DNA of 64,000 nt from positions 39,519-103,518 of IMG/VR virus record IMGVR_UViG_3300031857_000057. One strand, 5' to 3'. This document shows positions 41,171 through 61,373 of this stretch, piece by piece. Both the position numbers and the translations under genes were made by a program. The stretch is from a virus. The notes under the pieces were generated by a model. The model did no database searches. It was not told where the DNA came from and saw nothing but the letters and a program-made list of their open reading frames with translations. Each line of letters opens with the position of its first letter. Within the stretch, counting starts at the first letter, position 1.

Positions 41171-42046
41171 TTAATTTACAAGGCTATACATAGTATCTGA
41201 TAAGTGTATATGTTTATGAAAACCCCAATGTCCTTGTAATTTATTAAAATTATAATCAGCTGCATTTTTAAATAATGGATCTTTATTGTATTCTTTATGA
41301 CAGGATAAATCTTTTATTGATAAAGATTTTTCTATAAAAAAATTATTAGAATTAATTTTATTTTGCATTGTTGTTTGAGATGGATCTGATAAAACTTGCT
41401 CCCATATAGTCCAAACAATTTTTATATTATTTGATAAACAATACTGCTCTAACATTTGTATAAACATTAAATTATAAAAAATTGCAAATTCAAATGGTAG
41501 TATTGTGTTTGGATTGTGTGGAGCTTTTGATATTTTTTCAAAATCATGTATATAAGAATTACATTTTTGAATAAATTTTAAATTTGATTTTTTAATATTA
41601 ATATCTAAAGGGCCATCTACTTTACACATTTTATCTTTTACATATGGCATTTCAAATCTTGCTATTGGAAAAACTCCGAATATGTATTGAGGATGGCCAA
41701 ACTCTTTAAAATATTGAAAAGCTTTTATTACTTGACCTTGCATAGAATCTCCAGGGTACGAAAGATTTGCATAGCTCATACTCATTTTATTTGATAGCAT
41801 ATACGGCCAAGTTTGTTCTATATTTAATCCTGTGCCAAATGTATACGAACATCCCAATGTCATAATATTATGACTACCAAATTCTTCTGATCTGTATCCA
41901 ATAGAGTTATACTTATATTCAATAGCATGCTCATTATAAAATACTTTATTGATTAATTTATCATTATATAATTTATTGTTTTCTATCATTTCTGATAATT
42001 TTCTATTAAAAATATTATCAAAATCAAAATCTATTTTTTCAATCAT
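41171..42046 (-). CDS. SGNH-hydrolase-like protein, copy 1
   Basis: 291 residues from the ATG at 42046 in an ATGA overlap with the carbamoyltransferase. Block I 'MTLGCSYTFGTGL' replaces the usual GDS with GCS, keeping Ser; 'YPGDSMQGQ' and the C-terminal 'HWGFHKHIHLSD' supply the other blocks. Could remove or transfer an acyl group. Two paralogues are at 43462 and 47983. Confidence 0.65.
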   Translation of the reverse strand: MIEKIDFDFDNIFNRKLSEMIENNKLYNDKLINKVFYNEHAIEYKYNSIGYRSEEFGSHNIMTLGCSYTFGTGLNIEQTWPYMLSNKMSMSYANLSYPGDSMQGQVIKAFQYFKEFGHPQYIFGVFPIARFEMPYVKDKMCKVDGPLDINIKKSNLKFIQKCNSYIHDFEKISKAPHNPNTILPFEFAIFYNLMFIQMLEQYCLSNNIKIVWTIWEQVLSDPSQTTMQNKINSNNFFIEKSLSIKDLSCHKEYNKDPLFKNAADYNFNKLQGHWGFHKHIHLSDTMYSLVN

Positions 42047-43461
42047 ACTATTATTTTTACTCCATAAATACTTTCCCATTCTAATATATCTTTTTTATCA
42101 TTTAGCAATGGTTGAGATTTTACATTTAAGCTTGTATTTAATAGTATTGGTATTCCAGTTAAAGAATACCAGTTGGACAAGACTTCATGTAATCCAGGGT
42201 GCTGTTCTTTGTTTACTGTTTGTACTCTTGATGTGCCGTCTTTGTGAACCACAGACGGTATAAGCTCTGGCTTTAAACACTTAACAGCATATTGCATATA
42301 TGGTGAAGTAAATTTCATATCAAACCATTTGCTAGCATATTCTTCTAAAACAACTGGAGCAAATGGTCTAAAAAGTTCTCTTTTTTTAATTTTATTAACT
42401 TCATCTTTAATATTTGGATCTCTTGGATCTGCTAATATACTTCTATTGCCCAAAGCTCTTGGACCATATTCTGCTCTACCGTTTGCTACTGCAACTATTT
42501 TATTTTTTATTAAAGACGTTATAATTTCATTTACAGGATATTGATTTGATATATCATGGCCAAGATATGGTCCCTTCCAATTTAAGTGTTCACCATACAG
42601 AGCTGCGGCAGCACCCAAAGAAGAGCCAGCATCGCCAGGATTTGGCATAATCCATATATCATCAAATATGCTCCAAAGCTTTGTATTAGCAGAACAGTTA
42701 AGGGCACAACCACCCATAAAAACTAAATTAGTTTTTCCAGTTAGTGATCTTGCCATTCTCATAAAATCTAATAAACGTAACTCATAAACTTTTTGTACTG
42801 CAGCAGCAATATCAAATTTATCTTGTTCTGTTATTAATCCCCAGTCAGATATGCCTTTATGAAAATTATATTTTTGTTTATTAATTGATGGAAAGTATGA
42901 ATTTACCTTATTAAAATATTTATTTGGATCTCCATATGCTGCCATTCCCATCATAATATATTCTTCTTGGTTAGGCATAAGACCTACTAGTTGCGTAAAT
43001 GCAGAATAAAATAAACCAAAGCTGAATGGGTAATTAAATTTTTTGACAGGTTTTATTATATTATTATTTCCAACCCATATTGTTGCGGTATTCCATTCTC
43101 CAATAGCGTCTAATACAACAATTACTGCATCATTAAATTTGCTTGTATAGTATCCTGCTGCTGCATGAGAGTAATGATGATTAAAATATTTAACTGGTAA
43201 ATTAATTGGAATATTTGGTTTCCAGTCCGATGCTCCACCTTTTAAAAATATCCGTGATCTTTTTAGTTGAGGGTGTTCATAATACGCTATATGTGTTGGT
43301 GTACCATAATTGAGCATATCCAAATAGATATCTTTATTGTTATACCAATCATTTTTCTTTTTACTATATCTTTCAGCATGAGCAGCAAAAAGTATATCTC
43401 CATCTTTTACTAAAGATATAGATGCATCATGAGATGTTTCATTAATTCCTAATATAATCAT
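42043..43461 (-). CDS. Carbamoyltransferase, NodU/TobZ family (copy 2)
   Basis: 472 residues. 'GINETSHDASISLVKDG', 'FNHHYSHAAAGYY', 'EYGPRALGNRSILADPRD' and 'ILLNTSLNVKSQPLL' cover both domains. Shorter than copy 1 at 27941 (547). Flanked by SGNH-like genes on both sides in the same operon, which suggests that a carbamoyl or acyl decoration is added or removed from one acceptor. Acceptor unknown. Confidence 0.88.
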   Translation of the reverse strand: MIILGINETSHDASISLVKDGDILFAAHAERYSKKKNDWYNNKDIYLDMLNYGTPTHIAYYEHPQLKRSRIFLKGGASDWKPNIPINLPVKYFNHHYSHAAAGYYTSKFNDAVIVVLDAIGEWNTATIWVGNNNIIKPVKKFNYPFSFGLFYSAFTQLVGLMPNQEEYIMMGMAAYGDPNKYFNKVNSYFPSINKQKYNFHKGISDWGLITEQDKFDIAAAVQKVYELRLLDFMRMARSLTGKTNLVFMGGCALNCSANTKLWSIFDDIWIMPNPGDAGSSLGAAAALYGEHLNWKGPYLGHDISNQYPVNEIITSLIKNKIVAVANGRAEYGPRALGNRSILADPRDPNIKDEVNKIKKRELFRPFAPVVLEEYASKWFDMKFTSPYMQYAVKCLKPELIPSVVHKDGTSRVQTVNKEQHPGLHEVLSNWYSLTGIPILLNTSLNVKSQPLLNDKKDILEWESIYGVKIIV

Positions 43462-44549: not shown

Positions 44550-45059
44550 CTAAGAGTTTAGTATCTTAGCCAAAGCATTTACGGTTGCTGCAATCCTACC
44601 AATATCACGTAGCTGTTCAACAGTAAATCCTTCTTGTTTTAGTGTTTCATAATGTGCTTTAACACAAAAATGACACTTTCCAATAATAGATGATGCTAAT
44701 GAATATGCCTCAAAATTAGCTTTTGTTGTCCCACCATGGGATGCAATAGCATTCATCCTAAGCTGTGCTGGCAAACCCTTTAGCGCTGGATCATCAGCCA
44801 TTTCAACGTATGGATACCATACATTGTTTTGAGCCATTAGCGCACCAGCGGTCATTGCGGCGTTTTTTTCAACCTCATTAGCTGAACTTGCAGCAATAAA
44901 AGCAATAAGTTTTCCATTACCAGTAGCAAAAGAAGCAGCTAAAGCTAAATGAGTTGCTAATTCTGGATCAACTGTACTTCGGTTAATAACAGAATCAAGG
45001 TTTAGTTTTATATCTTTTGCATACTCAGGCAAAGACTCTTTTAATTGCTCCACCCACAT
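44550..45059 (-). CDS. ahpD: Alkylhydroperoxidase AhpD
   Basis: 169 residues. The proton-relay and redox residues of mycobacterial AhpD are conserved: Glu117 (ANFEAYS), Cys129 and Cys132 (GKCHFCVKAH) and His136. AhpD reduces AhpC, with electrons from lipoyl proteins. Starts in a 1-nt overlap with ahpC. Near full length, so probably functional. Confidence 0.92.
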   Translation of the reverse strand: MWVEQLKESLPEYAKDIKLNLDSVINRSTVDPELATHLALAASFATGNGKLIAFIAASSANEVEKNAAMTAGALMAQNNVWYPYVEMADDPALKGLPAQLRMNAIASHGGTTKANFEAYSLASSIIGKCHFCVKAHYETLKQEGFTVEQLRDIGRIAATVNALAKILNS

Positions 45060-45637
45060 CAGAGTGTTTCTCCGCCAAGCTGTCTATTGCAGGCACAAAG
45101 TTCTCCTGTTTGCAAAGCATCTAGAATTCGCAACGTCTCCTCTGGGCTTCTTCCAACATTAAGATTATTGACCGTAACATGCTGAATAACGTTGTCTGGA
45201 TCAATAATGAAAGTTGCACGAAGAGCAACACCATCATCATTTAGAACACCAAGCTGCTCTGCCAAACCTGTTGGAATATTTTCCGCCTCAGTCCAATATT
45301 TTGAATTATTACGAAGTTGATCTGCAAAAGACCACGAATTTGTTTTCTTTAGATCTTCATGTGCATTTCTCCATGCAATCTTACAAAATTCATTATCTGT
45401 TGATCCTGTTAATAATACTGCATCACGATCATTAAAATCGTTAACTAGCTTATCATATGCGACAATTTCTGTCGGGCAAACAAAGGTAAAATCCTTTGGA
45501 TAATATACAACTACTTTCCACTTTCCTGGAAACCATTGTTCGCTTAGCACTTCAAAAACATCATCAGATGCATCAAGTCTCCCTGGCTTCACACCAACGA
45601 TACGAAATGGTTCTAACTTGTATCCTACTGTTTTCAT
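45059..45637 (-). CDS. ahpC: Peroxiredoxin AhpC
   Basis: 192 residues. The peroxidatic Cys54 sits in 'DFTFVCPTEI', and the two C-terminal cysteines (181 and 183, 'ELCACNRQ') match the actinobacterial three-cysteine AhpC. Reduces H2O2, organic peroxides and peroxynitrite. Preceded by AAGGAGAAAG. Paired with ahpD as in mycobacteria, possibly acquired from a host. Protects the infected cell from oxidative stress, perhaps light-induced. Confidence 0.94.
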   Translation of the reverse strand: MKTVGYKLEPFRIVGVKPGRLDASDDVFEVLSEQWFPGKWKVVVYYPKDFTFVCPTEIVAYDKLVNDFNDRDAVLLTGSTDNEFCKIAWRNAHEDLKKTNSWSFADQLRNNSKYWTEAENIPTGLAEQLGVLNDDGVALRATFIIDPDNVIQHVTVNNLNVGRSPEETLRILDALQTGELCACNRQLGGETL

Positions 45638-51699: not shown

Positions 51700-51760
51700 A
51701 GTTATCTATATGATCATCAATATCTCTACGCACAGGATAGATATCCTCAACTATTGACAT
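51677..51760 (-). CDS. Acidic micropeptide, 27 residues
   Basis: Sequence starts MSIVEDIYPVRRDI and is acidic. The ATG is exactly 6 nt after TATAAT (51772-51767). Its end overlaps the -35/-10 region of the next gene, so reading through it may influence that promoter. Confidence 0.5.
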   Translation of the reverse strand: MSIVEDIYPVRRDIDDHIDNFDDLGIV

Positions 51761-51766
51761 AACACC

Positions 51767-51772
51767 ATTATA
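51767..51772 (-). promoter_or_regulatory. Leaderless -10 TATAAT
   Basis: 6 nt to the ATG at 51760; lies at the end of the three-hairpin RNA. Confidence 0.55.
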
Positions 51773-51777
51773 CAATA

Positions 51778-51870
51778 AGAAGGACCGCCAAGACAGAAAG
51801 GGATCTCGGCGGTCCAAGCGCTCCCCAGAAAGGGTAAGGAGCGTAAAGAGGGGATTTTCATCAACCCTCT
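51778..51870 (-). ncRNA. Candidate three-hairpin small RNA with anti-Shine-Dalgarno loops
   Basis: A consensus promoter lies just upstream, and the predicted start (about 51870) is the first base of hairpin 1. Hairpins on the reverse strand: AGAGGG/CCCTCT (51870-51865 with 51852-51847), CGCTCC/GGAGCG (51843-51838 with 51824-51819), GGACCGCC/GGCGGTCC (51815-51808 with 51789-51782). Loops 2 and 3 both contain CCCTTTCTG. The last stem is followed by TTCTTATT, a weak terminator. No plausible coding frame. Role inferred. Confidence 0.65.
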
Positions 51871-51876
51871 ATGTAT

Positions 51877-51906
51877 ATTATAGCAAAGTTATTTGGGCTT
51901 TGTCAA
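51877..51906 (-). promoter_or_regulatory. Consensus promoter TTGACA-18-TATAAT of the small RNA
   Basis: Reverse strand TTGACA 51906-51901, 18-nt spacer, TGC-TATAAT with TATAAT at 51882-51877. Both hexamers are perfect, the strongest promoter seen in the window. Confidence 0.85.
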
Positions 51907-56953: not shown

Positions 56954-56980
56954 GTTATATCCTTTCTGTTTGATATTCCA

Positions 56981-57313: not shown

Positions 57314-57338
57314 TATTTCCCTTTCTGTGAGATATTTT

Positions 57339-58519: not shown

Positions 58520-58546
58520 TTTATTACCTTTCTGTTAGTTATAGCA

Positions 58547-59397: not shown

Positions 59398-59423
59398 TGG
59401 TGGTTTCCTTTCTGTATATACCA

Positions 59424-59719: not shown

Positions 59720-59750
59720 TTGCTTTTCCTTTCTGTTAGGTGTTTTGTTG

Positions 59751-60179: not shown

Positions 60180-60209
60180 TTGTTTTTCCCTTTCTGTTTG
60201 GTGGTATAA

Positions 60210-61350: not shown

Positions 61351-61373
61351 GGTGTCCCTTTCTGAATAAACCA

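Follow-up and report, generated by a model that had tools for sequence, protein, structure and literature searches.

What is made from a perfect promoter on the minus strand of a phage genome, and on what would its product act? The locus belongs to a 103.5 kb virus record, of which a stretch of 64,000 nucleotides, called here the window, was analysed. Between 51906 and 51774, the minus strand carries a perfect promoter of the sigma-70 type, then three hairpins that fold stably and an end resembling a terminator.

A predicted small RNA locus with its own promoter

Features of the locus are listed in Table 1. A sequence-only reading had placed the predicted start on the first base of hairpin 1. 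The sequence bears this out: the promoter matches the consensus at 12 positions out of 12, and base 51870, the seventh after the -10 box, is the first base of hairpin 1. The minimum free energy of the three-hairpin fold (51870-51782) is -46.5 kcal/mol, against -26.2 ± 3.4 for shuffled sequences, none of which, among 200, was as good (z = -5.9). The loops of hairpins 2 and 3 contain CCCTTTCT, and the 9-mer CCCTTTCTG lies on the minus strand at 51826-51834 and 51794-51802, exactly where it had been placed. An alternative pairing had been suspected of partly hiding the loop of hairpin 2; the effect is real but small, as the opening cost is 1.3 kcal/mol, compared to 0.0 kcal/mol in hairpin 3.

Hairpin 1 is probably a 5′ protection, and hairpin 3 followed by TTCTTATT is, from its sequence, a probable terminator. 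On such predicted elements, the criterion of a trans-acting bacterial sRNA, namely a promoter and a terminator of its own, is met. A discrete transcript is very likely, although this is inferred without RNA data.

Table 1. Coordinates of the small RNA locus and of candidate target sites in the window (RBS, ribosome-binding site; SD, Shine-Dalgarno).
Feature	Position	Strand	Basis
Promoter TTGACA-18-TATAAT, extended -10 (TG before the -10 box), TGCTATAAT	51877..51906	-	12/12 consensus matches
Predicted sRNA, ~97 nt, start 51870	51774..51870	-	start 7 nt after -10 box; fold z -5.9
Hairpin 1, 5′ end	51847..51870	-	fold; most homologues have a differing hairpin at the same place
Hairpin 2, anti-SD loop CCCUUUC(U)	51819..51843	-	fold; hairpin conserved in homologues with covarying stems
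Hairpin 3, 13 pairs, anti-SD loop CCCUUUCU, then TTCTTATT	51782..51815	-	terminator-like hit
Separate leaderless-type promoter of next small ORF, MSIVEDIYPVRRDIDDHIDNFDDLGIV (TATAAT, then ATG at 51760)	51758..51772	-	sequence
Candidate target RBS CAGAAAGGG, gp88-like gene (start 61350)	61356..61364	-	loop duplex -11.8 kcal/mol; Pfam GP88
Candidate target RBS CAGAAAGGG (start 60179)	60188..60196	-	sequence match, duplex energy
Candidate target RBS CAGAAAGGA (start 59719)	59727..59735	-	AGAAAGG kept in 9 orthologues; duplex energy
Candidate target RBS CAGAAAGGA (start 59397)	59406..59414	-	AGAAAGG kept in 9 orthologues; duplex energy
Candidate target RBS CAGAAAGGT, DUF932 gene (start 58519)	58526..58534	-	AGAAAGG kept in 8 orthologues; duplex energy
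Candidate target RBS CAGAAAGGG (start 57313, protein MLGYIETD...)	57319..57327	-	AGAAAGG kept in 7 orthologues; duplex energy
Candidate target RBS CAGAAAGGA (start 56953)	56960..56968	-	sequence match, duplex energy

Several observations concern the neighbouring genes. A very small conserved ORF with the motif EIFPIxRDIDDHIDDF adjoins the RNA in the window (51760-51680, minus strand) and in L021, L036, L090 and L095, and is also present in the otherwise different phage contigs L262-L273. Between 41000 and 54400 of the window, a TATAAT-like box precedes the start codon of many genes by 4-8 nt (for instance 51772-51758, 50437-50424 and 54364), suggesting, as far as such boxes can tell, leaderless mRNAs. 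At 44550-45637, minus strand, a gene for an AhpC/TSA-family peroxiredoxin adjoins one for an AhpD-like protein of the carboxymuconolactone decarboxylase family. A carbamoyltransferase gene, an unusual phage cargo, lies near tRNA genes at 42043-43461, minus strand, between two genes without Pfam match.

The RNA belongs to a conserved family

Members of a conserved RNA family were found in about 37 other viral contigs. When IMG/VR was scanned for CCCTTTCTG occurring twice at close range, 95 contigs came up; in 27 of them, the 9-mer occupies the loops of tandem hairpins. Wider scans brought about 10 further contigs with the family. In class A (this window and L095), hairpin 1 is followed by two anti-SD hairpins, the last being a long predicted terminator. 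Most RNAs are of class B, composed of hairpin 1, two short anti-SD hairpins and an H-type pseudoknot, often with an extra CCUUUCU in the tail. In other members (L248, L250, L151 and L353), a single hairpin accompanies the pseudoknot, and L007/L063 have a large second hairpin. Most complete homologues in other phages are preceded, at the same place, by TTGACA-17/18-TATAAT or TATACT; a few (L018, L151) have a TTGCAT -35 box. Homologues keeping a reading frame would have refuted the proposal, and none is kept, the spacing differing between homologues.

Stem conservation was examined in two alignments. In the 15 class B RNAs of alignment A3, 98.8% of the cells are paired, compared to 41-50% when the alignment is slid; 10 pairs have changed on both sides, and double-changed cells number 33, against 8 in shuffles. 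Alignment A4 (22 hairpins, one of them hairpin 3 of the window) has 46 double-changed cells against 10.4 in shuffles, and a covariation score of 0.89 against 0.19. The choice of A4, unlike that of A3, rested partly on stem length, which biases its percentage of paired cells upward. Both expectations of the sequence-only reading for relatives, covarying stems and conserved loops, were therefore borne out, and we are nearly certain that the RNA family is real.

The loop proper has 8 bases, CCCUUUCU, and the first of them, C, can be A or U, so that the conserved core is CCUUUCU. The 9-mer described initially reaches beyond the loop: its ninth base, G, normally closes the stem (U.G, C-G or, as A, U-A) and lies outside the target match. 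Counted alone with one mismatch allowed, the 9-mer is only mildly above chance (22 occurrences against 11.9), and the decisive evidence is conservation, not its count. A scan blind to the loop, with the hairpin 3 arm and the pseudoknot as key, retrieved 15 contigs, all 15 with the core in both loops. The core is also carried by L248 and L250, retrieved via a neighbouring 28-residue protein, and by L151, retrieved via the pseudoknot. Since all these loop-independent retrievals keep CCUUUCU, loop conservation is not only a search artefact. Covariation between loop and RBS was considered at the ninth base, as L250 has the loop CCCTTTCTA and one TAGAAAGGG site. It was rejected, because this base closes the stem; moreover, the RBSs of L250 carry C and T equally.

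DNA polymerase and terminase of the record are closest, at ~53% identity, to those of Streptomyces phages of the Stanwilliamsviridae; no convincing RNA hit was obtained in cultured members of this family and a mycobacteriophage (best E 0.29), and in phage Vanisoa, related to the cluster A mycobacteriophages L5 and D29, there was no model hit and no CCTTTCT in the right-end region. Megablast found no near-identical phage in GenBank. None of 33 pattern hits in bacterial genome contigs fits the model well (best E 0.24), and none was found in 395 actinobacterial genomes, under strict filters and without positive control. We found no description of the family in the literature searched, which does not exclude one elsewhere.

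The pseudoknot forming the 3′ part of class B RNAs is also found by itself. This compact H-type element, TCCTGRGCATGA-N-TAAA-NN-GCYC, is present in at least 120 viral contigs (L179 and L200 among them), many of them phages of 33-60% GC, and at 57493-57466, 59545-59518 and 60272-60242 on the minus strand of the window. It is located behind stop codons or immediately ahead of the following gene, and some genomes have several copies. The pseudoknot stem shows A-U/G-C covariation, and the element has no Rfam match. It is possibly an mRNA 3′-end or processing element.

With this architecture in hand, one can ask whether the hairpins merely serve the neighbouring genes in cis, as tandem terminators that close the right arm or as the leader of the downstream ORF. 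The RNA does lie at the downstream end of the right arm, and hairpin 3 looks like a terminator. We nevertheless hold this to be very unlikely, as the RNA has its own 12/12 promoter, no T tract is found at hairpins 2 and 3 of class B RNAs, and conserved loops are not expected of terminators. As for a leader, the MSIVEDIYPVRRDIDDHIDNFDDLGIV motif of the small ORF is kept in other phages, but the gene adjoining the RNA differs from phage to phage and has a -10 box of its own beside the ATG.

The loop core matches the 16S tail and right-arm ribosome-binding sites

Actinobacterial 16S rRNA ends with CACCTCCTTTCT (28 genomes matched), and CCUUUCU is that end. An actinobacterial host is inferred, not shown, from phage kinship and leaderless-type promoters. 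CCUUUCU is also the complement of AGAAAGG, the RBS of many right-arm genes. The earlier claim of complementarity to CAGAAAGGG holds in that the loop matches right-arm RBSs, with the exact site present before three starts and 8 of its 9 bases before four others, as announced (Table 1); the matching unit, however, is the 7-mer AGAAAGG and not the 9-mer.

AGAAAGG is kept across phages in over a dozen gene families. The base after it varies (A 81, T 35, G 31, C 7), and the variable positions agree on the two sides: bases flanking AGAAAGG vary, as do those flanking the loop core. In this genome and in G008, many AGAAAGG genes are each preceded by a TTGAtt...TGCTAAgat-like promoter of their own; their leader is short, with AGAAAGG some 8-15 nt from the predicted start. 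Only about one third of the right-arm leaders of this genome (8/25) contain it. In the Streptomyces phage Navo, which has no convincing RNA, it is absent from all 28 annotated right-end leaders.

Protein sponges, like kissing RNAs, typically have tandem hairpins in which the loop is fixed and the stems are free. The loops might then bind a protein, either as a CsrB/RsmZ-like sponge or as a decoy for a recogniser of the 16S tail, RBS complementarity being secondary. This appears quite unlikely to us: the fixed core is the exact complement of the conserved AGAAAGG while flanking loop bases vary, and no candidate protein is known. Moreover, the exact 16S tail, CTCCTTTCT, had 3 hits before the pseudoknot, none of them a hairpin.

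The loop prefers right-arm leaders

Computed energies were compared between leaders of the two arms. In this genome, the mean loop energy is -7.1 for the right arm (25 leaders) and -4.6 for the left arm (95 leaders), and binding at -8 kcal/mol or better is computed for 13/25 and 3/95 respectively. The comparison with shuffled loops called for by the sequence-only reading was clear-cut: the real loop ranked top among 70 permutations, whether these were scored by affinity for the right arm or by specificity for it. All 11 testable records have the RNA immediately downstream of the right arm and on its strand, and the loop prefers right-arm over other leaders (p from 0.017 to 7e-7); with records pooled (268 and 706 leaders), it again ranked 1/70. 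G002 is not among the 11, as the record ends ~1.9 kb upstream of the RNA. These are not 11 independent tests, since the records are related (G000 and G003 being nearly identical), and leader starts were chosen partly by SD strength. Loop and RBS are both computed to be accessible, the loop duplex (-8.4 to -11.8) comparing with -8.1 to -10.3 for the 16S tail. Pairing of the loop with early-arm RBSs is likely, on computed energies only.

The same RNA and loop chemistry could serve against the host, if the main targets were host mRNAs with AGAAAGG-type SD sequences: the RNA would aid host translation shut-off, and GGAG-led and leaderless phage messages would escape. The loop mimics the host 16S tail, a -10 box immediately precedes the start codon in many genes of this phage, and host toxicity has been reported for the stable right-end transcripts of cluster A mycobacteriophages (PMC5712189). 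However, the loop favours the right arm of the phage itself in every testable record, although only phage leaders were compared, and the RNA always adjoins the right arm, whose early genes a host-aimed RNA would harm most. We therefore regard a host target as unlikely.

A proposed damping of the early arm

The regulated arm is probably early, because it contains a homologue of the L5/D29 gene product 88 (Pfam GP88), and the leftward right-arm genes of L5 and D29 are early (PMC5712189). The best single explanation, to which we give a probability of about 0.6, is that a trans-acting anti-Shine-Dalgarno sRNA damps or represses this arm. Our observations cover the RNA and its structure, the invariance of its loop core, its location beyond the arm and the pairing preference of its loop; transcription, binding, repression and timing are inferred. 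A phage small RNA of ~97 nt would be transcribed from its own strong housekeeping-type promoter, and two hairpin loops would present CCUUUCU, a copy of the actinobacterial 16S rRNA 3′ end. Each loop would pair with the AGAAAGG of many right-arm genes and block ribosome binding, so that the arm would be damped as a block. Left-arm genes, mostly with GGAG-type sites, and leaderless genes would be spared. Being structured, the RNA may accumulate and act as a timer, with progressive damping leading to early gene shut-off.

Several points weigh against this explanation. There are no transcript data, and any mimic of the 16S tail complements RBSs, so that pairing is no independent proof of the target. 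The loops are mostly CCC while most RBSs are GGA or GGT, which leaves the first loop base untuned to the average target. The low share of AGAAAGG leaders in this genome, the relatedness of the supporting records and the choice of starts count here as well, and host mRNAs with the same SD would also bind the RNA.

A wider formulation, which is possible but which we advance only tentatively, is a translation switch in Shine-Dalgarno register: AGAAAGG would mark the early arm, GGAG-type sites or leaderless starts the late genes, and one 16S-tail RNA would silence the first class only. Such a switch would need no repressor protein to shut a whole arm and, possibly, host messages belonging to that class. 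It would be a case of a phage RNA regulating a whole set of its own genes by imitating ribosomal RNA, and would give an RNA answer to how early genes get turned down. A sharp and cheap test becomes possible, with one loop, one RBS and compensatory mutations. A further gain is an RNA family that covariation supports and Rfam lacks, from uncultured freshwater actinophage-like viruses.

Comparison with known systems

The C-rich loops of RNAIII pair with SD sequences. This Staphylococcus aureus RNA is reported to pair with target mRNAs and arrest their translation (PMC2837412), which is the likeness with the repression proposed here; otherwise RNAIII is long, serves the host in virulence regulation and has an unrelated structure. 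Cluster A mycobacteriophages (L5, D29) have stable right-end RNAs that resemble ours in being small, non-coding, abundant and adjacent to homologous early genes such as gp88 (PMC5712189), but they lie at the start of the arm and their function is unknown. A phage precedent for loop-RBS antisense control is the c4 RNA of P1 and P7, which blocks ant translation by pairing around the RBS, probably via its loops (PMC12197685). It acts on one phage gene, whereas the SD sequence aimed at here is common to many. The c4 criterion, an Rfam match and antirepressor linkage, is not met: there is no Rfam match, and no antirepressor was seen nearby, not every ORF having been searched.

In RNAs of the 6C family, each of two loops has a run of six or more C. 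This is not the case of the loops CCCUUUCU, whose longest C run is 3, once 4, and the RNA matched no Rfam 15 family above threshold, nor 6C even at a permissive threshold. Lacking C6 loops and an Rfam match, it is not a 6C member. The 6C/B11 sRNA of Actinobacteria (mycobacteria) is nevertheless similar, in that its two hairpins direct C-rich loops at ribosome-binding regions in actinobacterial cells; in B11, either C-rich loop suffices to repress a target with a G tract in its 5′ UTR, and pairing with the RBS has been reported (PMC10470900). We propose that our RNA would work like 6C/B11, repression being deduced from computed energies only. The difference is that 6C/B11 is chromosomal with repeated-C loops, whereas here a phage-encoded CCUUUCU copy of the 16S tail is linked to a phage regulon.
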